Assembly: GCA_030737835.1 (NCBI GenBank)
Contig: JAUJYN010000012.1
Span: 10,464,729-10,528,728, forward strand
Source: Acorus gramineus
Lineage: Eukaryota; Streptophyta; Magnoliopsida; Acorales; Acoraceae
Length of the DNA: 64,000 bases
Direction of reading: 5' to 3'
The notes beneath the pieces are model-generated. The model was not told where the DNA came from, made no database searches, and saw only the letters and a program-made list of their open reading frames with translations. The position numbers were made by a program, and so were the translations under genes. Shown here piece by piece: positions 1-62,839 of the stretch (position 1 is the first letter of the stretch; each line of letters starts with the position of its first letter).

Positions 1-1180
1 ACATGATAGACATGAGAGGCAAAGCTCCCACGAACCATGGCATCAATAAGGTTATGAAGAGTCCGCATATCAAAGGACCTAGACGGAGCAGTGGAAGCAT
101 CACCCTACATTGAGGAATCAGCAATAGCAGCACGAGGGGCAGGCAGAGGAGCTCCAACATTGCGAGATTGCATTAATTGTGGGTATAGAAGAAAACACCT
201 GGTACATGTCCTGTTTTTTCCATAGTGGCTGCAAGTCACAATATTGTTGTGTCCTCGTCCACGACCACAACCGCGATTGCGACCACCATCGCTGTGGCTG
301 CAAGTGTCATATCCAGAATTGGCCGCCAATGCCATTTGATTGCTGAGGGTTCCAGTGGTCGTTGAGGAAGAGATCTGACAGCGACGCTCATCACCCTCAA
401 TAATAGCAAATGCCTCAAATAAAGAAGGAAGTGGTGTGTATTCCAAATCTAAACACAAAGAGATTCAAACTCTTGTCGAAGGCCCATAAGAAACGCATAC
501 ATCTATTGGTGTTGTAGTCGGCCAACCACAATTGTGGCAGCCTCCCTAGTCAACTCTGAGAGAGGCTCATAGTGGGCAAGGTCCTCCCAACGAGCCTGAA
601 AAAATCCAAAATAATCGGTAACAGACTGGGTACCTTGGGTGCCCTGTGCAATATCCTTGTACAACTCATAGATCCGTGAGTCATTCATGGGATGACCGTA
701 TGTTTTCTTCAGCGCATTCCACAGAGAGTCGACTGTATCATGATACGTGAACATATTATAGATCTGGGTCTCCATGGGAGTTGAAGAGCTAACCTTGAAC
801 TGTACAGTTGTTGATCTCTCACTTATTGAAGGTTGCATCAATGTCTGCTGACTTTTGAATGGTGCCAAGAAGGAGGCCTGACATGCCTCAACTACCCAAA
901 TATAATCGAATGGAATGTGACCAAGACGGATAATTCCATCCATCAAAGAGCACATTGGCAATACATTGAGCTTGACAATTGTGCCCTAATGGTATGGTGA
1001 TGTCTTTGATCTCCACAACCAGTGGTGGGGGTGGATCCTTGGGCGTTGGATCCTTGTTCTCTATTGCAAACCACAAATCTCAACCCAAGAGAGGAAGAGA
1101 TAATGGCGATCACCACGACCCGTGATGAATCAAGAAAAAAAATCGTGAAACCCTAGGGTTTCTTTGTGGCTCTGATACCA
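1..1180 (-). mobile_element. Ty1/copia retrotransposon, gag region remnant (antisense)
   Basis: Read on the minus strand, 1076 down to 105 encodes a broken copia-type Gag. The pieces lie in different frames, so it is a pseudogene. The N-terminal piece (1076-888) contains the motif LFDGWNYPSWSHSIRLYLGS, typical of the start of plant copia Gag. The middle piece (961-503) contains TVDSLWNALKKTYG and QSVTDYFGFFQARWEDL, as in the Gag/UBN2 family. The C-terminal piece (458-105) has PLPSLFEAFAII, then a basic Gly/Arg stretch and a damaged zinc knuckle, CSHYGKNRTCTRCFLLYP. Integrase and reverse transcriptase would lie to the left of base 1. The element is opposite in direction to the EDR2_C gene on its right and probably sits in one of that gene's introns. 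Confidence 0.85.
1167..1180 (-). other. Retrotransposon primer-binding site (initiator tRNA-Met type)
   Basis: The minus strand reads TGGTATCAGAGCCA, the standard copia primer-binding site complementary to the 3' part of initiator methionine tRNA. It lies just before the Gag frames, and so marks the inner edge of the 5' LTR, which must start near 1182 and extend rightwards on the plus strand. Confidence 0.9.
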
Positions 1181-2342: not shown

Positions 2343-5020
2343 AGGCTAATTGATGATGAAGTAGAAAAGGTTAGAGGATTTCCTGTTGATACAATTTCAC
2401 CCTTCCGGGAAAGGTTAAAGATATTGGGTCGTGTGGTGAATGTGGATGATCTTCATCTAAGCGCTGCTGAAAGGAAGCTTATGCATGCTTACAATGAAAA
2501 ACCTGTTCTTTCTCGTCCACAACATGAATTTTATATGGTGAGTAGTTTTGCACCATGATTAAATTCTTTCTGGATTCTGTTGTATTAGTGTACATCTCTC
2601 CGGAATTTATATTTCGATGAAATTTGAGTCATAAGTTGCACACTTCATTCCTCTGTGTGCATCAATCTGATATGATCCGTGCATTTAGTAGACATACTTT
2701 TTACGTATTGCTGTTGCTATTTGATTCTTTCAATTGGACCCCTACTTCTCCTTAGTACATAGGGAGAGGGATTTTTATCACAGCAGCAAGAGGCCATCAA
2801 TATCCTGTTCAGCACCTTACACAATTGAGTATAGTTTGAGAATGATTAAATAACAGTTCCAACATTTTTAAAATTTTCAGGTGTCCAATTTGAAACCCTA
2901 TAGGATAGAATTATGTGCTAGTAAATTCCAAGGCACGGGCATTTTTTAATGCTGGAGAGGGTCTACATTAAGGGGATCCCTTATCCTCTGTTGTTTATTC
3001 TAGCAGCATATTTATTAATTAGTGTGTGCCTAAAGGCAAGAGAGGATGGGATGTTTCTCATTTGCATATGCAGACTGTACTCGATAATATGAGATGGATA
3101 CAACCGGAATACATGGGGATTGAAAATAGTGCTCCAATGTCCGAAGATGGTTTCATGGCTGAGGATCATCATGAAAAGAGTGCTGTTGCTGTGGTAAATT
3201 TGTGTGAGGCAGAACTGGGTGCTTTTGCAAAAATCCTTCAATGTAGAATAGAAGAGTGTCATATTAATACCTGGGGTTCCCTTTACATTGTGGCAGTCCT
3301 TTCTGCCAGGACTGAGTCACTGGTGGAGAGATTCGAGGAGTCGTGGAAGGAAAGGAAAACGCAGCCTGGGAGGGTAATTGGTATTTACTTAAAGATATGT
3401 AATCTTTCTATTTTTTCAGTTTGCCAAAAAGAATTTTGGAAAAGTTGGATGTTTTTCTTATTTGAAGAAAGTATAGGAGCATCCATTATTAAAAGAAACC
3501 CCTCAACAAAGGAGGAAAAGGATTTTAGGGGAGCACCACAAAGACTTCCCATGAGGTCACCCATCTCAATACTAATCTCGCCCAAGAGTGCTTAACTTCG
3601 GAGTTATGAAGAGCCTCGTGCGATAGTACTGTCATGATCGCAAAACAAGCTGGATGTTATGAGAAGGTTTCTATGTTGTGGGAACAATGAGGTAAGAAGG
3701 GTGTGCATCTAGCAAAATGGGGTGTAGTAAACGAAGAGGCTGGAGGAATGGTTGTATCGAACTTGAACATCAAAAAAAATAAAAATAGAAACCTTATTTG
3801 AGCTGTCTTCTCTTAATTGAGCTCCTCAACTATTTACGTTGAACGTGATTTATTAACAAACAGTGGAATCACCAATGCTTTTGCATTTTCTTCTTTTACC
3901 CAAGCATGGATCAGTGACCTCTCCTTGATGTAGCAATTTGGCATTGCAACTTCTTAAGAGAAGTGCCCTTTCCAATTGGTCCATAGTCTTCTCTCAACGT
4001 GCTACTGTTCATCCATAAGTTCTTTTTTTTTAATCTAAAAGAACTTACTACTGTTGAAGGTGATTAATTATCAATATAATTAATGAATAGTGTGACCACC
4101 AACATGCTTTGCCCATTCCTCTCGTCATATCAATGCATGGGACAGTGGTCTCTCCTTTGATGTGGGAATCAGCTATTGCAATTTCTTAGAAGCACACTTT
4201 TCTTTTGGTCTTTATCGCCAGATCATCTATTTGAATAGTGCCTTCCCACAGGTTCTTATGAACAGATTTTATAATATTTTAAGACTTTGTGTTATATGTA
4301 GATTAAATTCTATTTAATAACCTCATTTCTTTCTGTCCATTACAATCCTAGTCCTTTCCACTTCTTCTCTAAACTTGTTTCTGACTTCCTTCCACCTCTC
4401 ATATGTATCATTCAGTTTTATGCAAAATCTTAGTACGACAGCATGCACATTAAATTATCATTGTTGTTAGATTACTGTATTCGGATACCTCTTATGTGCA
4501 ACTTTATGAAATCTGCTTGTTTACTTCTTTTTTAAAAAAATTTCAAAAATATTATGGGTATTCATGTATTTTCTCATATTGTCATTGTTTTTCCTATTAT
4601 TCCCAAAATGCACCTATTTCATGTATATTACCATTCTCCACCAAAGTTGTATCCCCATAGATGGATACACAAAACTCAAACCTATCAATAATATATTCCC
4701 ATCTTTTGCAGGGAGAGAATTACTTTGAAATTGATATTGATATGCATAGATTCAGTTACATATCAAGGAAGGGATTTGAGGCATTCATGGACAGACTAAA
4801 GCTTTGCGTCTTGGATGTGGGATTGACTATTCAGGTTTTTGTTTGTATGTGTATTTCCTTCTATATTTAGAACTAATTTGCAGATAACAATGATGGTTGC
4901 TAATGCAAATACTAACAGGGGAACAAGTCTGAAGAGCTGCCAGAGCAGATCTTGTGTTGTGTGAGGCTGAACGGGATCGATTTCACTAACTACCACCAAC
5001 TTTCTGTGCCTTCCCTATGA
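2343..5020 (+). CDS. EDR2_C/DUF1336 domain protein, C-terminal three exons (partial gene)
   Basis: Three exons, all joined in phase 0, give the C-terminus of a plant DUF1336/ENHANCED DISEASE RESISTANCE 2 C-terminal protein. They are 2343-2537 (donor GTGAGT), 4712-4834 (donor GTTTTT, weak) and 4919-5020, ending in TGA. Diagnostic stretches are [58 protein letters not shown] and [18 protein letters not shown]. These match, from memory, the last part of the Arabidopsis At1g13970/At3g29180-type subfamily. The family's N-terminal half is missing and should lie left of the window. The domain is thought to act at membranes; its biochemical role is not settled. The 2.2-kb intron 2538-4711 holds unrelated material. 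Confidence 0.88.
3023..3373 (+). other. Unidentified 117-codon exon-like open frame inside the EDR2_C intron
   Basis: An open frame on the sense strand runs from an AG at 3021-3022 to a GTAATT donor at 3374. It is exactly 351 bases, so inclusion between the flanking phase-0 exons would keep the EDR2_C frame. The peptide looks like real protein ([57 protein letters not shown]), with amphipathic helical character and balanced composition. I do not recognise the family. EDR2_C proteins as I know them have nothing here. It may be a captured exon, a fragment of another gene moved by a transposon, or an old coding relic. The frame stays open past the donor to 3595, but that part is low-complexity. 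Confidence 0.4.
3527..3644 (-). pseudogene. 5S rRNA-derived pseudogene
   Basis: Read on the minus strand this stretch follows plant 5S rRNA over almost its whole length. The match is strongest around CTCCGAAGTTAAGC (about 3591-3604) and GGGTGACCTCATGGGAAG (3549-3566), which include the internal promoter region and the 3' arm. Many substitutions rule out a working gene. It may be a stray 5S copy, a 5S-derived SINE, or the 5S-like part of a Cassandra TRIM LTR; no second LTR or tail was found to decide. Confidence 0.8.
3840..4270 (+). repeat. Diverged tandem duplication (~200 bp) in the EDR2_C intron
   Basis: About 3840-4030 and 4050-4265 share an ordered series of similar words (GTGACCTCTCCTTGATGT against GTGGTCTCTCCTTTGATGT, then CATTGCAACTTCTTA against TATTGCAATTTCTTA, then a CATAAGTTCTT against CACAGGTTCTTA end). 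The copies are well diverged and non-coding. Confidence 0.5.
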
Positions 5021-10944: not shown

Positions 10945-12504
<1,560 letters not shown>

Positions 12505-14347: not shown

Positions 14348-14971
14348 TCACCGCCAATTGCTAGCATCTCCACGTTGTTGCTCTTCAGTTTGAACTTCCA
14401 GAAGGTCTTCATTGTCCTCTCGTTGTAGTTCCTCAGTTATAACATCTTCATTATTATCTTCTGTATCTTTTGGAAATTCATTTGAATAACACTCTTTAAG
14501 AAATTTTTTTTTGCAAAGCTACACAATTCACTACTATCTTCGCTCGTGTCCTATAAGGGAATGGAGGCGCCGATTTGAAAATGACGAATAATATGCCAAA
14601 TAATCTCTCGATCACATTCCTCGAGGAAGCATGACTAAGACTAAGCAACTTATTTGCGCGCTTTAGGTCACGTCCTAGACTAAACTCTTGAAGATGGTAT
14701 GAAATGGGGATAAAAATTGATGTTAATTTGGATAACCAGCATCAACCAAAAAAATATACCTAAAATATAAAAGACATTTAATTAGTATTTTTGTAAGAGA
14801 GATATATGACACTAGTAAAATATAAGTACCGGGCCGGCCTTTCTTATGTGGTATGCGTTTTGGATTGTAGAAATGACTAAATCTAACTTTTTCCATGTTG
14901 GACATTTTGAGGTCTCCATGCTGGATTGCAAACGGGCCGGCCTTTCCTAACATTTTCTTTTGACATATCAT
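14348..14971 (-). pseudogene. PIF/Harbinger (HARBI1-type) transposase C-terminal remnant
   Basis: On the minus strand 14760-14723 reads YIFLVDAGYPN, carrying the second catalytic Asp of Harbinger DDE nucleases. After an in-frame stop comes YHLQEF, then KLLSLSHASSRNVIERLFGI and PPFPYRTRAKIVVNCVALQK, the family's C-terminal blocks, then an acidic tail ending at the stop 14350-14348. The stop and a frame change between the blocks show it is dead. The frame upstream of YIFLVDAG (14971-14770) does not match the family, so a splice site or rearrangement lies there. Confidence 0.82.
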
Positions 14972-15290
14972 CCATTGTTAGGCTGGCTCTCATCAAGTCA
15001 AACTGGCTTCTACAAAAATTAATAGTCTACTAGAAGATTTTCATCAATGCTCTGATGCTCGAAAAAGTTGTAAATTAGACGTCTTATGTTTTCGGTTGGA
15101 CATGATCCTCAAAAGTACATGGCCCTTGTATCTCTCACTAGCATGCATCCATCTGAACTGTGATTTACTGAACAATATAATATATAATTTGATTACCAAG
15201 TTTTATTTAGCCACGTCAGATCTTCGTAAACAGTACACAGGTATTTCATGCAAGTACTATTTTCACACATAATGATAATATATAAAAACG

Positions 15291-15676
15291 TCATAATATA
15301 GAAGTTTGGTTCATGGAAGTATAGCATATGATATTTATTGATAGAAGATAAAACCATAGAAAACTATGGTTTAGCAGGATTACACACAACAAGGCATGCA
15401 GATTGTGGATTTAAAACCATCATAATATAGAAGTTTGGGGTCATGGAAGTATAGCATATGATATTTATTGATAGAAGATAAAACCATAGAAAACTATGGT
15501 TTAGCAGGATTACACACAACAAGGCATGCAGATTGTGGATTTAAAACCATCATAATATAGAAGTTTGGGGTCATGGAAGTATAGCATATGATATTTATTG
15601 ATAGAAGATAAAACCATAGAAAACTATGGTTTCGCAGGAGTACACAACAAGGCATGCAGGTTGTGGATCAACATTG
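15291..15676 (+). repeat. Three tandem copies of a ~130-bp unit
   Basis: Units start at 15291, 15420 and 15550 with TCATAATATAGAAGTTTGG. The second differs from the first by about two bases; the third diverges near its end. Each unit contains the small perfect hairpin AAACCATAG AAAA CTATGGTTT. The right arm of the inverted duplication has a single equivalent, so the tripling came later. It lies just downstream of the minus-strand peptide gene. Confidence 0.95.
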
Positions 15677-15773
15677 CCTTTTTTATTCTAATATGGTTTC
15701 TAATATGGTTTATGGTGAAGCATATTCATCATAAACCTTTATTCTATATAGATAGTACAACCAGGATTTGTCG

Positions 15774-15992
15774 TTAAACAATGCACCCGATGATGCAGTT
15801 GATGCTATTCAGTTCACATTTGATAAGGCACAGCGCATACGAAGTGATTGGTTGTGTGATCGGGCATGCCCTCACGCACATTTGGCGTTTCGCCTCACAA
15901 TCCGCGATGCAACGGCTTTGTGCATTGGCGGTGGAGGCCACCACGAACACGACGAGCATTGCAATCACAAAAGCTATCTCAAACTTGGCCAT
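15774..15992 (-). CDS. Secreted eight-cysteine peptide, copy A
   Basis: Single exon, 72 residues. Residues 1-24 are a signal peptide (AFVIAMLVVFVVASTANA), with likely cleavage before Gln25. The mature part has cysteines at 28, 32, 39, 43, 55, 59, 66 and 70, that is C-x3-C-x6-C-x3-C repeated twice with an 11-residue spacer (ACPITQPITSYALC). The doubled CX3C pairs recall alpha-hairpinin or thionin-like defence peptides, but I cannot assign a named family. It faces copy B (17760-17981) head to head. A TATA box lies at 16074-16064 on the minus strand, and the leader is nearly identical to that of copy B. Antisense frames over it are shadows. Confidence 0.82.
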   Translation of the reverse strand: MAKFEIAFVIAMLVVFVVASTANAQSRCIADCEAKRQMCVRACPITQPITSYALCLIKCELNSINCIIGCIV

Positions 15993-16063
15993 TGGAAAAT
16001 CAAGGAATGTATAACAATAGAAGGAAAAGTGTTTGGTGCAGATACTGAGGGACTGGATGAGGA

Positions 16064-16074
16064 GGTTTATATAG
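16064..16074 (-). promoter_or_regulatory. TATA box of peptide gene A
   Basis: Minus-strand CTCTATATAAACC lies about 75 bases before the ATG. The same word stands at the same distance before copy B. Confidence 0.75.
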
Positions 16075-16428
16075 AGGATGTTTGGTGGTATAGATTGGTG
16101 GAAGTAAACTATGCTACATTATAGTGAAATCAATGCCTTCCAGTAATAATAGTAATGCAGGGCCACACAGTGGTGCTGGAATTCAACCCTTATCTCATTC
16201 AAATATTTTATTGTTTTTCGGATCATGCATGTCAATGGTTCAACTTACATGAAATATAAGCTATTATTCGATTAATTGAACTGGACTATTTGTTAACATT
16301 TGTCCAGTTGATATGTTATAAGGCATAATTTGTATTGTTCAGTTGTGTGATTGTGTCCATTGGTGACTTGTGAACACCAAAACATATATGTTGTTTGTTA
16401 TATTTTTAGCCTGCTTAGTTGAAATTTG

Positions 16429-17319
16429 GAGAGGACGATCAACCAAAACAAATTAGAATATGTTATTTTACTAGAAAATCAACCCAAATGCAAAGACCAC
16501 CTAATCTTCGAATAGCTAGTCATGAAATATAATGAAACTAAAAACAGTACAATTAGATGGACTAATAGTACAATTGCCATACTTCTTGATGGTGATCATG
16601 ATCATTCTACAAATGAGTACTGGTGATCATTAAGGATTCAATGAGATAAAGGGTATATAAGTTATTTTAGGATGTAAAATAGTAAATTGGATTTTTTTTT
16701 TGTATAATTTTAAAAAATGGACTATTTTGGTATTTGTAGTTTCAAAGTTTCAAGATATTTGTTTAGCATTGTTACCCTCATTTTTACAGTCTCAAATGGA
16801 GTTCGTTAATCTCCTCCACTCACTGTAATGAGTATATATCTCGTTGAAAATTTCACATTTTCTATAAATAATATTACTCAATTTATTAGAGTAAATACTT
16901 TATAAAAGTACACACCTTCATCACATGAATTATATATGATTTTTTAAAAATGAAAATGTAGATTGACTGCGTTTGACACAGTAAAAAGGACGGAGTGCAA
17001 TATTTCCCCAAAAATATTCTGCTCTTGGAATACATGTTCCTTTTTTTATTTTATATGTTGACTGAGAAAGGATATTGGGAGGAAAACAAAGTTAAGAAAC
17101 ACCTTTTTTAAAAAAAATTTGCATGGTAACTAAATTATCGCTATGGAAGAACAATGTACATGAGGATTCTTACAACAGAAAAGAGGGGAAGCTAAGGCTA
17201 TAAACAAAATAAAAGGATGAAGAGAGATCAACTCCCTCATCCTTTACAAAAAGATATCAGATTAGCACCAAAATAAGCCCAAAAAATAAAAAGACTAGAG
17301 AAAGTCTCATTTCTGTGTC
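16429..17319. other. Unique spacer between the inverted arms
   Basis: AT-rich, no coding frame. About 16800-16995 resembles the dispersed AT-rich MITE family (ATATCTCGTTGAAAATT-type words and a GAGTGCAATATTT end). The rest is unassigned. It lies about 350 bases beyond each TATA box, so it forms the centre of a divergent promoter region. Confidence 0.5.
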
Positions 17320-17676
17320 CTTTCCCAAGTTCAACCAAGTAGGCTAAAACTATAACAAACAACATATATTTTGGCGTTCGCAAGTCATCAATGGACAACT
17401 GAACAATATAGATTATGCCTTATAGACAGATCAACTGAACAAATGGTAAGTTGTTAAACAAATAATCCAGTTCAATTAATCGAATAATAGCTTATTTTTC
17501 ATGTACGTTGAACCATTGACATGCATGATCCAAAAAGCAATAAAATATTTGAATGAGATAAGGGTTGAATTTCAGCATCACTGTGTGGTCCTGCATTACT
17601 ATTATTACTTGAAGGCATTGATTTCACTATAATGTATCCTAGCTTACTTCCACCAATCTATACCACCAAACATCCT

Positions 17677-17687
17677 CTATATAAACC
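17677..17687 (+). promoter_or_regulatory. TATA box of peptide gene B
   Basis: CTATATAAACC about 75 bases before the ATG at 17760, followed by a leader nearly identical to that of copy A. Confidence 0.8.
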
Positions 17688-17759
17688 CTGTCCATCCAGT
17701 CCCTCAGTATCTACACCAAACACTTTTCCTTCTATTGTTATAAATTTCTTGTTTTTCCA

Positions 17760-17981
17760 ATGGCCAAGTTTCAGGCAGCTTTTGTGATTGCGATGCTTGT
17801 CGTGTTTATGGTGGCCTCCACCACCAATGCGCAAATCCAATGCATCACAAATTGTCAGGAGAGACGCCAAATGTGCGTGAGGGCATGCCCGATCACACAA
17901 CCGATCACTCAGTATGCGCTGTGCCTTATCAAATGTGAACTGAATAGCATCAACTGCCTCCTCGGGTGCATTGTTGCATGA
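17760..17981 (+). CDS. Secreted eight-cysteine peptide, copy B
   Basis: Single exon, 73 residues. The signal peptide is 1-24 (AFVIAMLVVFMVASTTNA). Cysteines fall at the same eight positions as in copy A (28, 32, 39, 43, 55, 59, 66, 70). The two proteins differ at 14 of 72 aligned residues. Seven differences fall within residues 26-35, the first loop of the mature peptide, while the stretch from Cys39 to residue 50 and the second half up to Cys66 are nearly unchanged. The C-terminus has one extra Ala. The protein is probably exported and disulfide-bonded; a defence or signalling role is inference only. Some plus-strand upstream sequence is shared with copy A, so expression is likely similar. 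Confidence 0.85.
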   Translation: MAKFQAAFVIAMLVVFMVASTTNAQIQCITNCQERRQMCVRACPITQPITQYALCLIKCELNSINCLLGCIVA

Positions 17982-18364
17982 CAAATCCAAATCCTGGTTG
18001 TCCTATCTATATAGAATAAAGGTTTATGATGAATATGCTTGACCATAAACCATATTAGAATAAAAAAAAAGGCAATGTCGATCCATAACTTGCCTTGTTG
18101 TAGTACTCCCGCTAAATCATAGTTTTCTATGGTTTTCTTCTACCAATAAATATCATATATGCTACTTCCTTGACCCAAAACTTTCTGATGTTTTATTATC
18201 ATTGTGTGTGAAATTAGTACTTGAATGAAATACCTGTGTAAGTTGAATATGTGACTAATTAAAACTTGGTAATCAAATTATTGTTGAGTGACAACGAGAA
18301 CAACACGGATGCTAACTAGTGAGAGAGACAACAGGCATGTGCTTTTGAGTAGGCGCTGTATATT

Positions 18365-18640
18365 CATTCTTTTTTAATTACAATCCTATATGCATTGTTA
18401 AAAATCCAATAAATCATATGCATCGATAGATGATGTATATACATCGTTAATTTTTTTTTCACATTTTATTAAAAAAAGGATTCATTCAATTCAAAATAGA
18501 GTGATATACATTTTTAAATAAAGCATGTACATCTAACAATGATGTTTATTGTTTTTTTTAAATAAAAACATATGTGAACTACGTTTTGAATTGGACTATA
18601 AAAATGATTGACTCTAACATTTTCTTTTTTAATACATATC
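18365..18640 (+). mobile_element. AT-rich MITE inserted in the right arm
   Basis: Contains ATTACAATCCTATATGC, GATTCATTCAATTCAAAAT, a run of ATATACATTTTTAAATAAAG, and ends in GATTGACTCTAACATT. These words recur in the copies at 34625-34905 and, reversed, 34985-35262. It is absent from the left arm of the duplication. Confidence 0.65.
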
Positions 18641-18735
18641 AAGTTGAACCGGCTATCTAAGATGTCTCATTTACAACTTTTCGAGTATTAATTAGAGAAG
18701 AGCCAGCCCTAATAAATGGTGACAAAGGCGGTCTC

Positions 18736-20040
18736 GCCTAAGCCCCATATTCCAGCGGACCTAAAATCTAAAAATAATTTTTTTGTATCATAGGAATTTT
18801 ATTTTTCATATTTTTGTATATATTTTAATTTTTTTATTATTATATCTCTTACGTATATACATTATAATATATATTTAATATTTTAATATCTTAGTATACG
18901 CGCACCCATACACATACACATTACACACACACAAACAAACACATTATAGACACTCGATAAAATATGTACACAGAGTGAGATAGTACACATAATTAACATA
19001 ACATGCTGTACTGGAATGACCCAACACGCCATGGGGGGGGGGGGGGGGGGGGTTGGTCCAACATGACTCACATCTAATTACCTCCATTTCTAGTGTGACA
19101 GAGTTATTCTTCCCCCAACAAATTTATCGAAATAGATAACAATCATTGCAGAATAAAAAAATATTTATTTGATTATCTCTTTTAAAATTATCATTGAAAA
19201 ATGTAAAAATGACTTTTTGTTGTTTGGATTACTTTGAATAAAGTAATAATAAATGGGAATAAGAGATGACTAAGTGTTTATAATTGTTTAAATGATAATT
19301 ATACGTACCCCAGTATAAATTGTTTGTGTTTGAATAAGTATTAAAGATGTGTGTAGTGATATTATAGATGTGACTTTTTTTATGTCCGTAAAAGTATGAC
19401 TTTAATGTTTTGAAAATGACATATAAAGATATTTTCATTTGTTGACATAAATAATTTTTTATAAACAATTTCAACACCCCTAGAATATCAGGCCTATTCT
19501 AATTTATCCAAGGAGAGCTAGAAGTTTATTCTCTCAAAATAAATTTATTTTTCTTATTCCTCTTTGTTCCCCCTTATTCCCAATTTATGCCTCATCCCAA
19601 AAGGGAGTTGTTAACATATCATGTGTATTGGTTTCTCTGTGTGGTGTGCCATATCAATGTCATGTCATGTCATGTCGGCTTAACCTGTGTTACCCCCCTG
19701 GTTCAGACTTGATAACTAAAATTATTTATAGGAAAATAATATGTTTAATCCTTTTTTCTGTCCAAATTCCACTCCCCATATATTTTATAAAAATTTAATA
19801 GTATACCTCATACATCATCAAATAAGGTATATTTTTTTTATATGTAAAAAGTGAATTATATATTCTAATAAATCACGTGAATATATTTATAGAAAATGTA
19901 AAAAAATTCTAATGATGCATATACCTAGTTAAAATGAGTAGATAACACTGTCAAGATGCATGAGATTAAAAAAATGATTATGTACCTTCCCCGTTTTCTC
20001 ACCGACCCACCATTCATATTTACCAATAACTAAATCCACC
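18736..20040. other. Intergenic AT-rich region
   Basis: No gene seen. It includes a CA-rich stretch (18895-18945), a run of 20 G at 19033-19052 and low-complexity AT sequence. Confidence 0.5.
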
Positions 20041-22554: not shown

Positions 22555-23065
22555 TGGACCAAGGGCAAGTTAATCCAAAAAAACATTTATGTCCCTCTAA
22601 AAATGGATAATCTTATATAAGTCTCTATTAAGGTTGGGATAGACATACAAGTTCTTACAAACTCATAAAAACTCATAACATTGTCACCGTCAATATAGTT
22701 TAACCCTGATCCAACCTACTCTATTTAACCATAATTCATACCATGAAATAACTAAATTATCCATAATACTTCTATCCTTCTGAACAATGCCAAGGTAGAA
22801 GATGAATAAAATACAAGACTTGCAAGTGTAATTTGGTGTTTTGCAGGGGCTAATTTGTCTTTATGACTATTTATAGGGACTATGATGTCTGTACAATTAC
22901 TTGGTGATGAAATATTCTAGAAATATTCCATCAAATTTGGATGGAAATCTAATTTAGTGATAATAATTGGGTTTTGTAAGTTTTTAGGGACTTGTGCGTC
23001 TGGTCCAACTTTGTCAGGGATTTATATGGGATTACCCATGTTTGTAGGGATGTAGTGTCTTTTAA
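22555..23065. mobile_element. MITE with long imperfect inverted ends (family of 42772-43255)
   Basis: The left end has TGTCCCTCTAAAAATGGATAATCTTATATAAGTC. The reverse complement of the right end has CATCCCTACAAACATGGGTAATCCCATATAAATC. The interior is AT-rich and non-coding. The same terminal words recur at 42772-43255, with a fragment near 25185-25255. Confidence 0.65.
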
Positions 23066-23111
23066 CATGTTTTTTTTTTTTTAGGAGGCTAGTCTAGCTA
23101 TTAGATTTTTG

Positions 23112-23780
23112 GGAAAAATCTTCTTAACTCCCTCAAATCTTCTTGAAATCACAAAAAGTCCTTCTAAAATCAGAAAATCATCCTAGATTCCCATAGAGTG
23201 TATATGGTTAACGAATTTAGTCCCCCGGTCAAGAGTATATTGAAATAAGTCCTCAGAAACTTACTAAAATTGAATTCACTCCCTACAAACTTTATAAAAT
23301 CATATTTAGTTCTTTTGTAAGACAAAAATACCCATCATTTTTCAATATCCTCATGTCCTGAAATGTCATCTTCATCTGTAATATATATATATATATCCGT
23401 CGAATCTCAATTGATCTACAAAATTGAGTCATTTTTCAACATTTTTCCCTCCTCAATCTCATTTCAGATAATGAAAAAAAAAATTATAGTTTCATTAACT
23501 CCATTACAAAATCAGTAGAAAAAATAATTTAAAAACCAAATCAAAATTCTATAATACATTCTTAACTCAAAATTACTATCAATAAAAAGCATAACACCTT
23601 GACTATAAAACTATAATTTGTTTAATAAAAATTAAATAAATCAGTATATATTTTTAGATAATCATATAGATTTTTTATGAATTTTAGAAGTTTTCAGGGA
23701 GTTAAGACGATTTTTAAATTTCACAAGGACTTTTTTCAATTTTCATAAGATTTCAGTGAGTTATATTGATTTTTTCTAAC
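23112..23780. mobile_element. Foldback-type element
   Basis: Starts GGGAAAAATCTTCTTAACTC and ends with TCAGTGAGTTATATTGATTTTTTC, so the outer parts are inverted. The inner parts carry mirrored words such as CACAAAAAGTCCTTCT and ACAAGGACTTTTTTC. Non-coding. Confidence 0.55.
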
Positions 23781-23794
23781 AAAGAAAATAAATC

Positions 23795-24550
23795 TTGAAA
23801 GAGTATAACAGTAATTTACCATACATGGTTAGGGTTAACCACACATCTGGTTAGTTATAGGGACTAAAATAAACATTATCTAATAAGATAGGGACCTAAG
23901 TGGATTTATCAATTTTACAGGGACTTTGTCTGATTTTCATAAGTTTTCAAGGAGCTAGATCAATTTTTCCCTAGATTTTTTGTTTGGGAAAAATTGATAT
24001 AACTCCCTGGAAAGTTAGCGAAATTGGTTTTAGACTTTTAATCCTTACAAAATTGAAAAATCACTACAGGTCCCAGAAAATATGTATGGTTAATAGATTT
24101 CAGTCCTTAAGTTAAATTCCTTCAATAAATACATTCATATAAATCTCTACAAAATATGAAAAATCTGATTTAATGACAAATATGCTCCCACTTTTTCCTA
24201 AAATTTTTCCTACTATCTTATGCTCACTAACGATAAAAAAAAAAAAGGGAAAAAATCGATATAACTACCTAAAAACTTATGAAAATCTAAAAAGGTTCCT
24301 TTAAAATCATTAAATCTCTTTAAAGTCAATCACAAATTTAGTTAGTGTCATATAGTAATTTATCAAATAAATTTTAAAGGGGGTATTACAGTAAATTATC
24401 ATGTATGATTAGAATCAACTAAGATCTGGTTAGTTTCGATTACGGTAGGGATTGAAATAAATATTATCAAATAAGATAGGGGCCTAAGGGGATTTACCCA
24501 TTTTATAGGGCTTTTTCTTATTTTCATAAGCTTCTAGAGAGCTATATATA
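23795..24550. mobile_element. Composite foldback element(s), with an inverted relative at 41990-42570
   Basis: 23795-23970 looks like the right half of one unit, ending in AGGAGCTAGATCAATTTTTCCC. The segment 23985-24240 followed by 24246-24550 (starting GGGAAAAAATCGATATAACTA) reappears in reverse order and orientation at 42300-42570 and 41990-42310. Shared words are ATGCTCCCACTTTTTCCTAAA and TCTGGTTAGTTTCGATTACGG, allowing for changes. Confidence 0.55.
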
Positions 24551-25717
24551 TTTTGAAAATAAATTAATGTGTAGTTAAGGTTAACCATGTACCTCGTTAG
24601 TTATGGTGATGATTGGGATTGAAATGATTTTTCAATTTTACATGTATTAAAACCGATTTAGCTAATTTTATAAGAAAATGTGTTGATTTTTCCCTTTTTT
24701 TTTTTTTTTTTGAGGTTAGGTTAGCCATTAAAATATAAACTTGTAATCCAAGTCCAAGCCCCCCCCCCCACATGGGGGACAAGGTACTCTAGTTTCCTAA
24801 ATTTCAACTATCCAATATTCCTTGTTCAAGAAAAAACTATCCAGTATTCCAGTTATTGATATAACCCCCACGTCTTCTTGTTTTCTTTATTCTCTCATCA
24901 TATTCATACCGTATTAAATTAACCTCAAGTATCTCAAACCGTTCAACAACCCTCCACAAATGTCAAATCATACATAAATTTGAAGCATCTCTAGCCACCT
25001 ATATGTCTTGTAAGAGCAATTCCCTCTTCCTTTTATTTCTTGTATCGTACTAAATTTATATTCTTCCCCTTTCCTTGATTTTGAGGTAAGATTAGACTAC
25101 TGTAACTTAACGATGAGTTATATAGTCTATCATTTCTTCAAAAAAAAAAATCTTAAATATACATTAATAATAATTAAAAAAAAGGATTAAAGATATCTAC
25201 GTCTCTTGCAATCATAGATAATCTCAAATAAACATTTTTCAAAGTTAGGGCACACGTTGATGTTCTTCCTCTTCTAAGCATGCGTCACTTGATAATGGAT
25301 TAGAAAATCATTGAGAGATGGCAACTAATATACTTTGCTTTTCAGGATTTATATTCCTTGGTTTCTTTTCATTTCAATCTGTAAGTGTTGATATGTTAAT
25401 GCATTATGTAAATAAATAATTACATTATGTAAGTTTTTATCATGTTTCCGTAATTGGTCATTTTATATCTGTACATAGTTATGTAATTGAACATTACATT
25501 GTAGTACAATATAATGGTGCATGTGATTGTGACCATGAAAGGTGTATCAAGTATCTCTCATCTTTCATCGGGTGATCATGAACTCAACTATAGAAGTGAC
25601 ATAAGAATAATTCTGATTTATCTTTAATTATAGTATAATATAGTATAAAATTCTAAAAATCTTAACGTTGCATCCTCACATCCAAATGCTTATGAATAAA
25701 TTTTTTATTATAAATTC
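24551..25717. other. AT-rich intergenic sequence with repeat fragments
   Basis: No gene seen. About 24560-24690 carries another piece of the foldback family (GTTAACCATGTACCTCGTTAG). A partial copy of the 22555-type MITE lies near 25185-25255. Homopolymer runs occur at 24693-24711 (T) and 24761-24770 (C). Confidence 0.5.
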
Positions 25718-26548: not shown

Positions 26549-26783
26549 AAAGAAAACAACACCGTGAACACGTGACTCCTGAGAAAAAAAAATGCAAAAG
26601 CTATTTCGAAACTCTCTTCAGGTATCTTGGTCAGGGATGCTTCGGATGTACATGATTTATCGAGGATATATACGCAAAGACCCATCATTAAATACCCCAG
26701 AAAACCCCCCCGCCTTTGACTCTCAAAAGACGGAATAACGAAAGCTAAACACAAAGCGGAGCACCAGATCATCTCCCGCCCAT

Positions 26784-26792
26784 CTATAAAAT
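26784..26792 (+). promoter_or_regulatory. TATA box of the DUF538 gene
   Basis: CTATAAAAT in the C-rich context CGCCCATCTATAAAATCCAC, only about 40 bases before the ATG. The leader would be very short and consist mostly of the A tract that follows. Confidence 0.7.
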
Positions 26793-26830
26793 CCACTCCA
26801 CCAAACCCCCAAAAAAAAAAAAAAAAAAAA

Positions 26831-27397
26831 ATGAGGACTTCCACTCTCCTTCCCCTCCTCCTCCTCTCCCTTACCCTCACTGCCTCCTTATCCTCCTCCG
26901 CCGCCACCCCAACCCTCCTCCGCGAGACGGTCCACGACATCCTCCCCAAATACGGCCTCCCGAAGGGCCTACTCCCGGACTCCGTCGACAGCTACACCCC
27001 CGTCGGTCCCGACGGCGATTTCGAGGTGGAGCTGAAGAGGCCCTGCTACGTCCGGTTCTCCGATCTCGTCTACTACGAGAAGAAGATCAAGGGGAAGCTC
27101 TCCTACGGCAGGATCACCGATTTGAAAGGCATCCAGGCCAAGAAGTTCTTCGTTTGGGTCGCCATCACGAGCATCGTCGCCGATGAGTCGAACGGGACGA
27201 TCGAGTTCGATGCGGGGTTCCTCTCAGAGAATCTTCCGGAGAGGCTGTTCGAGAGCATCCCCACCTGCAAGAACAGGGCTTGCGAGCACCATCACCACCG
27301 TAACGCGTTGCCGTCCGATGAGTTTGGGGCATCCGATGGCATTGTCGCTGAGGTTTGGTTCCTTTCTCCCTCTTTTGGATTTTCTATTGTTTGTTGA
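26831..27397 (+). CDS. DUF538 family secreted protein
   Basis: The frame starts at the first ATG and runs 188 residues. Residues 1-25 are a signal peptide (LLPLLLLSLTLTASLSSSAA). The DUF538 body is seen in VHDILPKYGLPKGLLPDSV, FEVELKRPCYVRFSDLVYYE, KIKGKLSYGRITDLKGIQAK and FFVWVAITSIV, then GTIEFDAGFLSENLPERLF and a cysteine pair. This fits the plant DUF538 family (At1g55265-like); the fold is lipocalin/BPI-like in known members and the function is unclear. The body ends near residue 174 (SDGIVAE); the last residues, WFLSPSFGFSIVC, do not look like the family, so a donor at 27352 (GTTTGG, weak) with a short 3' exon may be used. The coding part is very GC-rich. Twenty A residues stand directly before the ATG. 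Confidence 0.87.
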   Translation: MRTSTLLPLLLLSLTLTASLSSSAATPTLLRETVHDILPKYGLPKGLLPDSVDSYTPVGPDGDFEVELKRPCYVRFSDLVYYEKKIKGKLSYGRITDLKGIQAKKFFVWVAITSIVADESNGTIEFDAGFLSENLPERLFESIPTCKNRACEHHHHRNALPSDEFGASDGIVAEVWFLSPSFGFSIVC

Positions 27398-34624: not shown

Positions 34625-34905
34625 TGTGACACTCAAATTTTTTTATAATCTAAAATATAGTTTTATATATCTCGTTACAAATTCAATTAATTATATAACT
34701 TATTAGATAATATATATACTTCATTAGATGTTTTTTAGACTAATTAAAAAGGGTTTCATTCAACTCAAAATGGATAGATATACACTGTTTATTAAAACAT
34801 ATACCTTATTAGGTGATGTTTATACTATTTTTAAAAAAATAAAAACATGTGTGGGATGAGTTTGGTGGTAAAAATGACTGAGTGTAATATTGTCCATTGG
34901 AATTT
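34625..34905 (+). mobile_element. AT-rich MITE, plus orientation
   Basis: Starts near GTGACACTCAAATTTTT and ends AAAATGACTGAGTGTAAT, which are inverted ends. It contains TATATATCTCGTTACAAATTC and AAAGGGTTTCATTCAACTC. Confidence 0.7.
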
Positions 34906-34984
34906 ATTTTAAAAAAATTGTATGGGCCAGCCTATTGGGCTTTACATGGCCTCGGACATCTAGTTAATGTTAGAGGAAAATGTT

Positions 34985-35262
34985 AAACTCAGACATTTTT
35001 TTCAACCAAAACTCAGACCACACAAGTTTTTATTTTATTTTTAAATATTAGACATCATCTAATGAGAGGTATATTCTTTAATAAAAATGTATATCGTTCC
35101 ATTTCGAATTGAATGAACTCATTTTAGTAAATGTAAGAAAAATTTTAACGAAGTATATATATCATCTAGCATGGTATATGCTCTACTGGATTTCTAACGA
35201 GGTATATAGGACTATATTTTAGACTGTAAAAAAAAAAAAACTGAGTGTAACAACACCCAATG
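34985..35262 (-). mobile_element. AT-rich MITE, minus orientation
   Basis: Reverse-orientation relative of 34625-34905, 80 bp away. It ends AAACTGAGTGTAACAAC and contains CATTTCGAATTGAATGAACTC, the mirror of the other copy's ATTCAACTCAAAATGG. Confidence 0.7.
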
Positions 35263-41814: not shown

Positions 41815-42570
41815 TGGGAAAAATCATGTAATCCTAAATATAGTTAAATCAGTTTTAATTTCTATAAATTAGAAAATCTCCGTAGGTCCATCTATTATTA
41901 GAAAATATTTTTTCAGTCTCTATATCATTTTAATTAATTATATACATGATTAATCATAACTACATATTAAAAGTTATAAGAATACTCTCATTCCTTATTT
42001 TCAAAAAATCGATTTAGCTCTCTAAAAATTTATAAAAATAAAAAAAAATCCCTTTAAAATGGTTAAATCCTCTCATGCCCCTATCTTATTGGACAATATT
42101 TATTTTTGTCCCTGTCGTAATTGAAATTAACCAGATATGTGGTTAACTCTAACCATACATGATAATTTACTAAAATACCCTTTTAAAATTTATTTGATAA
42201 ATTATTGTAATATACTAACCAGATTTGCTGTTAACTTTAAGAGGATTTATTAATTTTACAAAGACCTTTATTTTATTTTCATAAGTTTCCCGGAAGTTAT
42301 ATTAATTTTTCACTTTTTTTTTTATTGTTGGTGAGTATATGATAGCATGAGAATTTTTAGGAAAAGGCAGGGGCATTTTTGTCATCAAAAGGACTACATT
42401 AGTTTTTTTATATTTTGTAGAGACTTATTTGAATGTATTTATTAGAACAATTTAACTCAATGACTAAATCCATTAACCATACATACTTTTTAGGGACCTA
42501 TGATGATTTTTTAATTATTCAGAACTAAAACTGATTTAGCTAACTTTTCATATATATATATATATCAATT
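41815..42570. mobile_element. Composite foldback element, inverted relative of 23795-24550
   Basis: 41990-42310 carries TCTGATTAGTTT-like and GGATTTATTAATTTTACAAAGAC words of the 24246-24550 unit. 42300-42570 is the reverse complement type of 23985-24240 (AGGCAGGGGCATTTTTGTCAT, CATTAACCATACATACTTTTT). The order is reversed as expected for an inverted copy. Confidence 0.55.
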
Positions 42571-42771
42571 TATTTTCATGATTTATTCATTTAAAATCAA
42601 ATTTTAATCAATTATTTGTATGAAAATAATGGGAATTGTCGAATTCTGAAATATACCTTCGTTTTCATGCAATTAAACCTTCATTAATTTCAGCCATAGA
42701 TCAAGTATCTTCGATGGATTGAATGAGAATACCAAGATTCAAGTCATTATCCAATAAATTCAAAAGGGTTA

Positions 42772-43255
42772 AAGATATCTACATCCATGCAAACATGGAT
42801 AATCCTATATAAGTCTCATATGAATGTTTGAGATGGCGTTTAAGTCCTTGAAAACTTACAAAAACTTAATTATCATCCTCAAGTCAAAATTCCATTCAAA
42901 TTTAACAGAATATTCTGATAATATTACGTCACTATGTAATTGTGTATGCATTATAGTTTCCATAAACAATCATAAAAATAAATTAGTCCTTGTAAAGATT
43001 AAATTACCTCTGTAGGATTTTTATGTTTTTTCACTGTTTAAAAATAGTAAAAGAATTGGTATATTTTAATCATTTCATGGTATAGATAAGGATTAAATAA
43101 GATATCTTAGGTTATGGTTAATCTCTGTTGACATCAGGGATGTATATGGGTTTTTGTGTGTTTTCAAGGATTTGTATTTGTGCGCCTGCCCCCACTTTAA
43201 CAATGACTTATATGAGATTATTCATGTTTGCAAGGATGTGGATGTTTTTAACCCA
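42772..43255. mobile_element. MITE with long imperfect inverted ends
   Basis: Left GGGTTAAAGATATCTACATCC and CATGGATAATCCTATATAAGTC; reverse complement of right GGGTTAAAAACATCCACATCC and CATGAATAATCTCATATAAGTC. Same family as 22555-23065. Confidence 0.75.
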
Positions 43256-44286: not shown

Positions 44287-44918
44287 TAGGGATAAATTCA
44301 TATGACCTCTTGGAAACTATTCGAAATCCATGTATATAGCCCCCTGATTTTTTTTAAAGTCCATATAACACTAAAAAAACGCATGTACAAGTCCATATAG
44401 CCCTCTGAAAACACTTATATAAATCCAAATAACTCAAGAGGACTAGGACCTAACTTTGTTCTCAATCACTGGCTAAGACAAAGATAAAAGACTTCAGTTA
44501 AATTTTTGTTCACATATGAAGAATATTTTATTTGGTTAACCCTGCCTCAAAATACATTATACTAAAAATCTCATATAATGTGTTTAAAATGCAAAAAAAA
44601 GACTTCTGTAAGTGAGATTTTACCCCTCTAGATAGAGTTTTATAATCTATTTAGATGGGTATAATCATCATTTATAAAAAAAAAAATTTGCATTTTAATA
44701 TATTGTAGGAGATTTTTTTTGTATACCGTGTTATCAACCAAGATTAACCAAACATAATATTTGTATAATATTCCTCATCTGTTAACATAAGTTTCACTCA
44801 CAGAGCTATTTTAATTTACATAGACTTTTTCAAGAAGTTATATGGACTTTTAAAAAAGTCAAGGGTTATAAAATTTTTGAGTAGTTTGCAAGGGGGAATT
44901 ATTTAAAGTTTTTCCTAA
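44287..44918. mobile_element. Foldback element, copy 1 of 4
   Basis: The outer parts mirror each other: AAATTCATATGACCTCTTGG on the left, and AGGGGGAATTATTTAAAGTTT on the right. The inner words TTAACCCTGCCTCAAAATAC and GTATACCGTGTTATCAACC resemble a subterminal inverted set. No coding capacity. Confidence 0.65.
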
Positions 44919-45069
44919 AAAATAATAAAAGCTTTTTCATGTTGGCCTGCAGATGGAATTGTATTAGATGCTCGCGGGGTTTATCATAAAAAGGGTAAAA
45001 AGTGCTGGACAACCAGACATATTGGGATATTCATACCTACTCATCTACACGTGTTTGTTATAAATTCTA

Positions 45070-45594
45070 GGGAAAAATGCAAATAACCCCCTATAAATTG
45101 TTCAAGATCCATATAACCCTCTAATGTTTTCTAAAATTCATATAATCCCCTGAAAATACCAATGTAAATCCAAATAAACCCCTAAATTAAACTTCCATTG
45201 ACTGATGAGAAATATTCCTTGAATATTCCGTTTGGCTCCTAGCTGAAAACATAGTACACAAAATATCCTATACAATTTATTAAAAATGCGAAAAACTCTT
45301 TGTCAATGATGATTTTACCCCTCTGAATAAATTATAAAACTTTATCTAGATCGGTAAAATAGTAATTTATAGAGGATTTTTTGCATTTATAACACATTGC
45401 AGGGTTTTTTGATATACTACATTTTTAGACAGGGTTAATCAAACAGAATATTCATCATCCGTCAATGAAAATTTAACTTAGAGGGTTATTTAAATTTTCA
45501 TAGGTGTTTTCAGAAGGTTATATGGACTTAAAAAAAATCCGAGAGTTATATGGATTTGGGGCGGTTTAAAGGGGGTTATATATGGATTTTTCCT
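45070..45594. mobile_element. Foldback element, copy 2 of 4
   Basis: Starts GGGAAAAATGCAAATAACCC and ends GGGGGTTATATATGGATTTTTCC, the inverted equivalent. Same interior order as the neighbours: TTCCGTTTGGCTCC, CTTTATCTAGATCGG, then the mirror half. Confidence 0.75.
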
Positions 45595-46439
45595 TTTAAA
45601 ATAATCTATTTCGTTGTATCTATCCGAAAGTAGGAAGAAGTGACCTCAAAGAAAAAATCGTCTTCCATTTGCGTTTGGAAAAAATTAAATAAAATGAAAA
45701 ATGAAAGTAAAACATTTATATACATTCAATTACATTTTATATTTATCGATTTATACAATGTATTGGAGTATATATATACTTTCATTTTTAATAAAACATA
45801 TACCATTAAATAAGATATATTATTTATAAAACATGTTTTTTCTATTTATTCACCCATATTCCAATCTATTCACCACTATTCTACTAACAACGTTGACACA
45901 GCTCTACTTTTAACTCATTTTACCACACTAAAATCCTTGTAAATGAGTACATATGAACGTTCTCCATGTATTAAATACATATAAGTATTTTTTCAACTAA
46001 CAATAAGAATAAAATTCTACGGTGGGTGGTGGGCATTGAAAAATAAAATTAGAAAAATGATATGTTTAATCTTACCTTCTACAGTGTTTGATACTCGTCT
46101 AATAAAGTACAAATATGAAAATAAAACCATACTTATCTAATAAAGGACAAATATGAAAATAAAATGCATTTATAGATAAACTAATACATATTTTTTTATA
46201 AAAAAAAAAGTTACACCTCAATTTCAAAAAATACTTCAATAGTGGAGTATTGAGGGATTACTTTTGACTTCAAATGAAACTGAGTGTATCAGCTCTACTA
46301 ATATTAATAATATTTTTTGTTTTTGTTTTCATAGGACGTTATATTAATAATAATATAATAATATGGATGCAACAGAAAACGTTTCCATCGAATAAAGACG
46401 GAAAGGGTGAGGGGGACAACAAGGCAAGCATAAGAAAAT

Positions 46440-46978
46440 GGGAAAAATCTAAATAACCCCCTATAAACTGACTGAAATTCATATAACTCCCTGATTGTTT
46501 TTAAAGCTCATATAACCTCTTGAAAACACTTATGTAAATTCAAATATGCCCCTAAATTAAATCTTCGTTGACAGATTAAAATTATTTTATAAACATTTTG
46601 TTTGATCAATCCTTGTTAAAAACATAATATATAAAAACCCTTTACAATGTGTTAAAAATACAAAAAATCTTCTGTAGATGATGATTTTACTTTTCAGGAT
46701 AGGATTTTATAATTTATTTAGAAGAGTAAAATTGTCATGCACATAAGATTTTTCAAATTTTTAACAAATTATAAAAAAAAATTAGTAAATTGTGTTTTCA
46801 ATCAAAGTCAACAAAATGAAATGTTCGCAGACTATTCATCATCTATCAACTAAAGTTTAACTAACAGAATTATTTGGATTTACATTATGTGTTTTTAGAG
46901 GGTTATGTAGATTTTAGAAAAAGTCAGAGGGTTATATAGATTTTAAACAGTTTACATGTGGTTATTTGGATTTTTCCC
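46440..46978. mobile_element. Foldback element, copy 3 of 4
   Basis: Starts GGGAAAAATCTAAATAACCC and ends GTGGTTATTTGGATTTTTCCC, inverted ends. The interior repeats the same order of words around a central GATGATTTTACTTTTCAGG. Confidence 0.8.
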
Positions 46979-47013
46979 TAAGAAAATATATGTGTATTAT
47001 TATATTTAAATAT

Positions 47014-47558
47014 AGGAAAAAATTCATATAACCCTGTGGTGTAAACTGACTGAAATCCATATAACCTCTTGATTTTTCTTAAAATCCAAATAACCCCTTG
47101 AAAATATCTAATAAATCCAAATAACCCCCTGAATAAAATTTATGTTTATAGATGATGAATATTTGTGAATATTATGTTGAATAACCCTGATAGAAAACAC
47201 AGTATACAAAAAAAAAAAAACCTTACAATGCGTTAAAAATGTGAAAAATCTTATATAAATGATGATTTTATTCCTCTAAATAGGGTTTTATAATATATTA
47301 AGAGAGGGTAAAATCGTCATTTTCATAAGATTTTTCACATTTTTAATATATTGTAATAGTTTTATAGTATATTGTGTTTTCAGTCGTGGTTAACCAAACG
47401 AAGTGTTCACAAAATATTTATCATCTATTAACGAAAATTTTATTCAGATAGTTATTTGGATTTAGTAGGTGTTTTCAGGGGGTTATATGGATTTTAAGAA
47501 AAATCAGGGGGTTATATGGATTTTAGTCAAATTTGAGGGTGTTGTATGGATTTTTTCG
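47014..47558. mobile_element. Foldback element, copy 4 of 4
   Basis: Starts AGGAAAAAATTCATATAACCC and ends GGTGTTGTATGGATTTTTTCG. It lies 35 bp right of copy 3 in the same orientation. It ends about 250 bp upstream of the transporter promoter. Confidence 0.75.
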
Positions 47559-47626
47559 TTAAATATATAATAAAATATTTATATATCAGACACCGTTCCC
47601 ATTCCCTGTGCCCCACCGCTTAACAC

Positions 47627-62663: not shown

Positions 62664-62839
62664 AATCCAATAAATAATAAATGGTATAAACTTAATTATT
62701 ATAAAACATAAAAAAAAAATCTACAGTGTTTGAGAGTAGTATATGTTTGAAAGGCAAACCATGATTCAATTTTTCCAAATAAAACTCTAAAACCCCGCCG
62801 TCACAACTTCCTCCACCACCACCACCACCATTGAAGAAA

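Follow-up and report, generated by a model that had tools for sequence, protein, structure and literature searches.

A window of 64,000 nucleotides (nt) of Acorus gramineus DNA, meaning the whole stretch that was analysed, carries two intact, intronless genes for small cysteine-rich peptides, set head to head on the arms of a large inverted duplication. To judge from their sequences, the two genes belong to a fast-diversifying gene family, which lay beyond the view of the initial annotation of this DNA. We consider that they probably encode secreted defence peptides resembling the alpha-hairpinins, that the peptides are under diversification, and that one copy was duplicated in inverted orientation. 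In outline, a single inverted duplication copied an intronless gene whose product is a small, probably secreted peptide of ∼48 residues. The peptide, predicted to form two antiparallel helices held by a putative ladder of four disulfides, would work outside the cell, likely in defence as alpha-hairpinins do, by antimicrobial or protease-inhibiting action. Selection would favour variety, with duplication, direct or inverted, supplying the gene copies. Divergent gene duplicates in inverted repeats and variable secreted cysteine-rich peptides are both already known kinds.

The initial annotation described arms of about 1.4 kb facing each other across a 0.9-kb spacer, and gapped alignment bears this out (Table 1), with 972 of 1075 aligned bases identical between the inverted arms (90.4%) and 25 gap events. 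The outer limits first given, 14975 and 18730, located the arms, although our own alignment coordinates differ from them by 6 and 22 bases. The self-comparison contains the expected continuous inverted match. The arm core (15561-16436 against 17317-18183) forms a single blastn match of 894 columns, 86.5% identical counting gaps, and scores 1063 bits; when 14900-18800 was shuffled 50 times with dinucleotides preserved, no inverted match exceeded 39.2 bits. With dust filtering on and an E limit of 1e-10, blastn finds no stronger self-match anywhere in the 64 kb. The spacer has one match in the window apart from itself, of 51 nt at 19854-19903. The left arm has two more units of a 130-bp tandem repeat than the right, either gained on the left or lost on the right. 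Because the arms have diverged by 9.6%, differ by these two units and by a 287-nt insert on the right, and lie within a 13.9-Mb contig (C32, in which the window starts at 10,464,729; the genome is 398.6 Mb in 137 contigs), an assembly artefact is an unlikely source of the mirrored arrangement.

The Kimura two-parameter (K2P) distance between the arms in non-coding DNA is 0.096, being 0.072 in the core and 0.166 in the outer part. Plant DNA accumulates substitutions at about 6.5e-9 per site per year, and at that rate a K2P of 0.096 would make the arms several million years old. Mismatches are unevenly spread along the whole arm alignment (dispersion P 0.0068). Arm-to-arm gene conversion was considered and dropped, as the core shows no uneven spread of mismatches (dispersion P 0.10) and no unusually long identical run (P 0.19). 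Long inverted repeats of Caenorhabditis elegans similarly hold homologous genes, some of them divergent, in arms that include intergenic DNA. Those arms match almost perfectly, and active maintenance is believed to keep them so (PMC1803023, in the text available), whereas the identity and gap number given above set the present arms apart from that type. Other repeats in the window (44500-47586, and 22579-24562 against 41995-43249) are dispersed, both direct and inverted, and 68-78% identical.

Table 1. The inverted duplication and its two peptide genes, in window coordinates (ORF, open reading frame; aa, amino acids)
Feature	Position	Strand	Basis or remark
Left arm, inverted duplication (1456 nt)	14981..16436	-	gapped alignment, blastn
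Right arm, inverted duplication (1392 nt)	17317..18708	+	gapped alignment, blastn
Spacer between arms (880 nt)	16437..17316	.	gapped alignment
Left peptide gene, 72 aa, eight Cys spaced 3-6-3-11-3-6-3	15774..15992	-	ORF list, alignment
Right peptide gene, 73 aa, Cys spacing 3-6-3-11-3-6-3	17760..17981	+	ORF list, alignment; recovered in whole-genome search
Putative signal peptide, left, residues 1-25	15918..15992	-	family conservation; cleavage site placed by eye
Putative signal peptide, right, residues 1-25	17760..17834	+	family conservation; cleavage site placed by eye
TATA box TATATAAA, left gene, -81 to ATG	16066..16073	-	sequence
TATA box TATATAAA, right gene, -82 to ATG	17678..17685	+	sequence
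130-bp tandem unit (3.0 copies) beyond the 3′ end of the left gene	15283..15668	.	single copy in right arm
287-nt insert, right arm only	18350..18636	.	relatives at 34674-34894 and 34976-35219 in window

Each arm had also been credited with an intact secreted-peptide gene having the same TATA box and leader, and this agrees with what we find: the two frames are intact and share a signal peptide and the TATA box, and a leader motif lies at -46 in both. The genes are divergent, pointing outward from the spacer, and their products are 80.6% identical with 8 of 8 cysteines matched. The coding sequences differ at 23 positions, 18 of them in the first 108 bases (18/108 versus 5/108, P 0.007), and all eight cysteines and both frames have survived these substitutions. 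No indel separates the coding sequences, although the core non-coding rate predicts 4.15 (P 0.016). This expectation comes from 12 gap events in 625 core non-coding columns, excluding two tandem-unit gaps and including one event that touches the stop. When evolution without constraint was simulated from either gene, only 4.0% and 5.2% of 20,000 runs ended with the start, the cysteines and a stop-free frame all in place. Because of the absent indels and the low simulated survival, selection has probably kept the frames and cysteines of the pair, with the residues between the cysteines loosely held. The same indel result, with the retained cysteines and frames, supports the earlier proposal that a single inverted duplication gave rise to the pair and that both copies have been kept.

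It is very improbable that both genes are functionless, drifting relics. The ratio of nonsynonymous to synonymous change (Ka/Ks), based on few sites, is 0.69 for the whole coding sequence and 1.26 for the mature part, and amino-acid changes are not reduced, at 14 against a mean of 15.7 in the unconstrained simulation. The ratio for the whole coding sequence and the number of amino-acid changes would suit relics. Moreover, the pair was noticed for its intact frames, an ascertainment bias that tilts the tests of constraint against such a reading. However, the indel and simulation results argue the other way, as does the cysteine skeleton, which is kept in all six family genes found.

Searched at protein level with the right peptide as query, the genome returned the window pair alone (E up to 0.001, seven candidates scored), and a DNA search with the right-arm core found four further genes, forming two direct pairs. 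The members of one pair (C1) run in the same direction 4.7 kb apart and encode products of 114 and 90 aa; those of the other (C11), likewise in the same direction, are 13.8 kb apart and encode 99 and 163 aa. The family thus numbers at least six genes genome-wide, at least four of them relatives of the window pair. A six-frame motif scan of 172,803 bases (the window plus 11 stretches of 9.4-10 kb) returned exactly these six, and no further member was found within 20 kb on the outer sides of the C1 and C11 stretches. The skeleton C-X3-C-X6-C-X3-C-X(6-11)-C-X3-C-X6-C-X3-C is exact in 6 of 6 genes, with a central spacing of 7 and 10 in the C1 genes, 6 and 6 in the C11 genes and 11 in the window pair, and each open reading frame has one eight-cysteine domain. 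Proline-rich linkers of 45 and 19 aa (C1) and 33 and 97 aa (C11) are present in the relatives, and three of these linkers show tandem units; the window pair has no linker.

Promoter, leader and signal peptide are common to all six genes. The blastn similarity of the relatives spans all three (from the TATA box onward for C11) and ends at window base 17834, the final base of the putative right signal peptide. Upstream homology between the window and C1/C11 genes is taken from the blastn E-values rather than from identity over 180 nt, which is 75-82% against 67-74% in shuffled sequence. For the 3′ flanks the corresponding values, 72-82% against 67-73%, are not significant, although a likeness is visible by eye, and neither is the one 60-nt 3′-flank match between the window and its relatives (E 0.293). 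The two C11 genes (stretches L013:1696-1995 and L014:5795-6286) are 99-100% identical in promoter and signal peptide; as their linkers nevertheless differ about three-fold in length, the proline-rich unit evidently changes length quickly.

Between pairs, signal peptides share 64-80% of their amino acids and the domains, cysteines excluded, 3-19%, which we judge to be barely above unrelated sequences. In the C1 pair, 50 of 105 domain sites (cysteine codons excluded) have changed, against 24 of 336 in the 180-nt flanks (Fisher, 4e-19) and 10 of 75 in the signal peptide. The domain is still the faster when the flanks are widened to 600 nt (94/860, P 8e-18) or 1200 nt (274/1669, P 1e-12). In the younger C11 pair, the domain has changed at 10 of 123 sites, compared with 17 of 1267 in the signal peptide plus 600-nt flanks (P 4.7e-5) and 78 of 2986 when the flanks are extended to 1500 nt (P 0.002). 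All six genes spell cysteine codons 1-4 as TGC TGT TGC TGC and use TGC for codon 8, with codons 5-7 varying; the fixed TGT at the second cysteine favours common descent of the eight-cysteine domain.

Two results weigh against selection as the sole cause of this variety. Silent sites in the C11 domain have changed as well (proportion of silent differences, pS, 0.08), and the domain of the window pair shows no significant excess of change over non-coding DNA (P 0.12). The silent sites of the C11 domain outpaced the flanks, yet cysteine codons 1-4 did not change; selection may therefore be joined by focal mutation or by conversion that evens out the flanks. Focal mutation or conversion together with selection has been proposed for cone-snail toxins. 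A bolder reading, possible though we hold it with considerable doubt, is that these genes represent a new plant scaffold: helical hairpins that are secreted, have eight cysteines and may or may not carry a proline-rich linker. Their mature domain would be a sharply bounded, fast-changing cassette, flanked by a promoter, leader and signal peptide that are conserved and, among members of a pair, by a conserved 3′ flank. If so, the eight-cysteine hairpin would be a scaffold of small size and probably good stability. One genome here contains three gene pairs that differ in age, two direct and one inverted, so that the conserved and the changing parts can be compared side by side, which makes the origin of the peptide variety directly testable.

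The right mature peptide is predicted to be a two-helix hairpin (helices 2-16 and 24-47; predicted local distance difference test score, pLDDT, 92.8, from a two-sequence alignment). The cysteine spacing is symmetric, which suggests a four-disulfide ladder joining Cys1-Cys8, Cys2-Cys7, Cys3-Cys6 and Cys4-Cys5. This layout resembles that of the alpha-hairpinins (MBP-1, EcAMP1, VhTI, BWI-2c), in which a CX3C-Xn-CX3C core is combined with a pair of antiparallel helices (PMC7191063 and PMC11591084, in the parts available). The two CX3C motifs of an alpha-hairpinin are joined by disulfides, C1 to C4 and C2 to C3. The four-cysteine core CX3CX4-20CX3C of that family is present in 6 of 6 genes as Cys3-Cys4 and Cys5-Cys6, with n from 6 to 11, and the helix-loop-helix fold is present in the prediction. 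Under a rule in the available text of PMC11591084, any additional cysteines, if three or more, must build a second hairpinin motif, complete or partial. Cys1-Cys4 and Cys5-Cys8 can each be read as CX3CX6CX3C; in the model, however, each half is one helix and not one hairpin. The peptides also differ from alpha-hairpinins in having eight cysteines spaced 3-6-3-n-3-6-3, where those have a four-cysteine or a six-cysteine motif (3-3-n-3-3), and in the proline-rich linker of four of the six genes. Alpha-hairpinin precursors are usually, but need not be, cassettes or of vicilin type (according to the portion of the review available), whereas here there is one domain per precursor.

A PDB sequence search with the window pair gave no match, to alpha-hairpinins or otherwise. 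The pair has no match in Pfam either, the relatives giving rows below the cut-off only. In a large protein collection queried with the window pair, from which short unannotated genes may be absent, no candidate shared three 5-residue words. A list of similar folds included four vicilin-derived hairpins, ranked no higher than unrelated entries. Word searches of open papers found no description of the eight-cysteine spacing, which is weak evidence of absence. We therefore leave membership of the alpha-hairpinins open. The nemertean neurotoxin B-IV (1vib), an animal peptide without a sequence match in the PDB search, shares the layout, which would be convergence. In the general sense of a variable secreted cysteine-rich family the six genes do qualify, with a conserved signal peptide, eight cysteines throughout and divergent mature parts. 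NCR peptides likewise have fixed cysteines and a signal peptide better conserved than the variable mature part, but they have four or six cysteines and mostly two exons (PMC9515463, in its accessible text), against eight differently spaced cysteines, one exon and a predicted helical structure here.

Alpha-hairpinins are mostly antifungal or antibacterial and some inhibit trypsin (PMC7191063, in the part at hand), so by analogy the present peptides, if expressed and secreted, would probably serve in defence. The main rival is that they are reproductive or other signalling peptides, for instance in pollen-stigma or pollen-tube recognition. Recognition peptides would fit a conserved signal peptide and cysteine skeleton with divergent mature parts equally well, and the domain charges are near neutral (0 to +3). 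We nevertheless think signalling unlikely: nothing specific supports it, whether a receptor or a Pfam match above cut-off, and the predicted helical hairpin is closer to seed defence peptides than to known reproductive peptides. A seed-promoter idea was tried and dropped, as no motif position is shared across the family promoters. Both window promoters have CATGCATG at about -240. Over the 600 nt preceding each relative, CATGCA or TGCATG occurs between -118 and -114 for the C11 genes and at -592 for one C1 gene (C1b), while the other (C1a) has neither.

The initial annotation also suggested that read-through transcripts could fold into double-stranded RNA and feed small-RNA silencing of the family. 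The folding half of this proposal holds in our model, in which a transcript of 14970-18730 would pair arm on arm, with 1002 of its 1409 base pairs joining the arms and an unbroken run of up to 77; silencing is not favoured, and that the repeat is a hairpin-RNA source whose small RNAs tune the family seems to us improbable. A long inverted repeat of a gene, as in small interfering RNA loci of this kind, is indeed present. Silencing loci and nascent MIRNA genes are similarly formed by inverse duplication of protein-coding sequence, including the promoter in MIR163 (PMC3608071, PMC1790633, in the text available of each). In soybean, chalcone synthase inverted repeats correlate with their silencing, and the natural triggers suggested for other plants are transcription that runs through duplicated and rearranged genes, or convergent transcripts that overlap (both from the available part of PMC3608071).

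The present locus differs in that both genes keep intact promoters and frames, and in its orientation. Because the genes are divergent, their normal transcripts, and any 3′ read-through, leave the partner gene behind and never cross both arms. The mRNAs are not complementary, since both are sense copies departing the spacer in opposite directions. By this simple argument from orientation, an inverted repeat of divergent genes yields no hairpin RNA from the promoters of those genes. Hairpin RNA would require an outside transcript crossing both arms, such as read-through from the plus-strand ubiquitin-conjugating enzyme gene that ends at 12504, 2.5 kb ahead of the left arm. The domains of the relatives are moreover so different that small RNAs would reach them through the leader and signal peptide alone. 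The ubiquitin-conjugating enzyme gene itself has six exons (10945-12504, plus strand; UQ_con, E 1.7e-40; splice sites placed by eye), and its read-through would enter the left arm as antisense.

Elsewhere in the window, a weak retrotransposon gag-like open reading frame at 503-985 (minus strand, E 0.0091) falls under the Pfam cut-off. A single 5S rRNA-like match at 3528-3645 (minus strand) scores 39.7 bits against a gathering score of 38 and might, at a guess, be a relic or a derived repeat. On the plus strand, an intact, single-exon PORR gene, WHAT'S THIS FACTOR 9-like, lies at the right end of the window (62834-63985). It matched 379 proteins; among the 120 listed, one belongs to this genome and the remaining 119, none above 63% identity, come from many flowering plants, oil palm scoring best. 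Such a spread points to a flowering plant, perhaps a monocot, as the source of the DNA. The plus strand also has a DUF538 domain protein (26720-27397, E 2.1e-30) and, at 59832-60704, an open reading frame that hits LRR models (E 2.9e-26 and 1.6e-9) of the kind found in FBD/F-box-type proteins.
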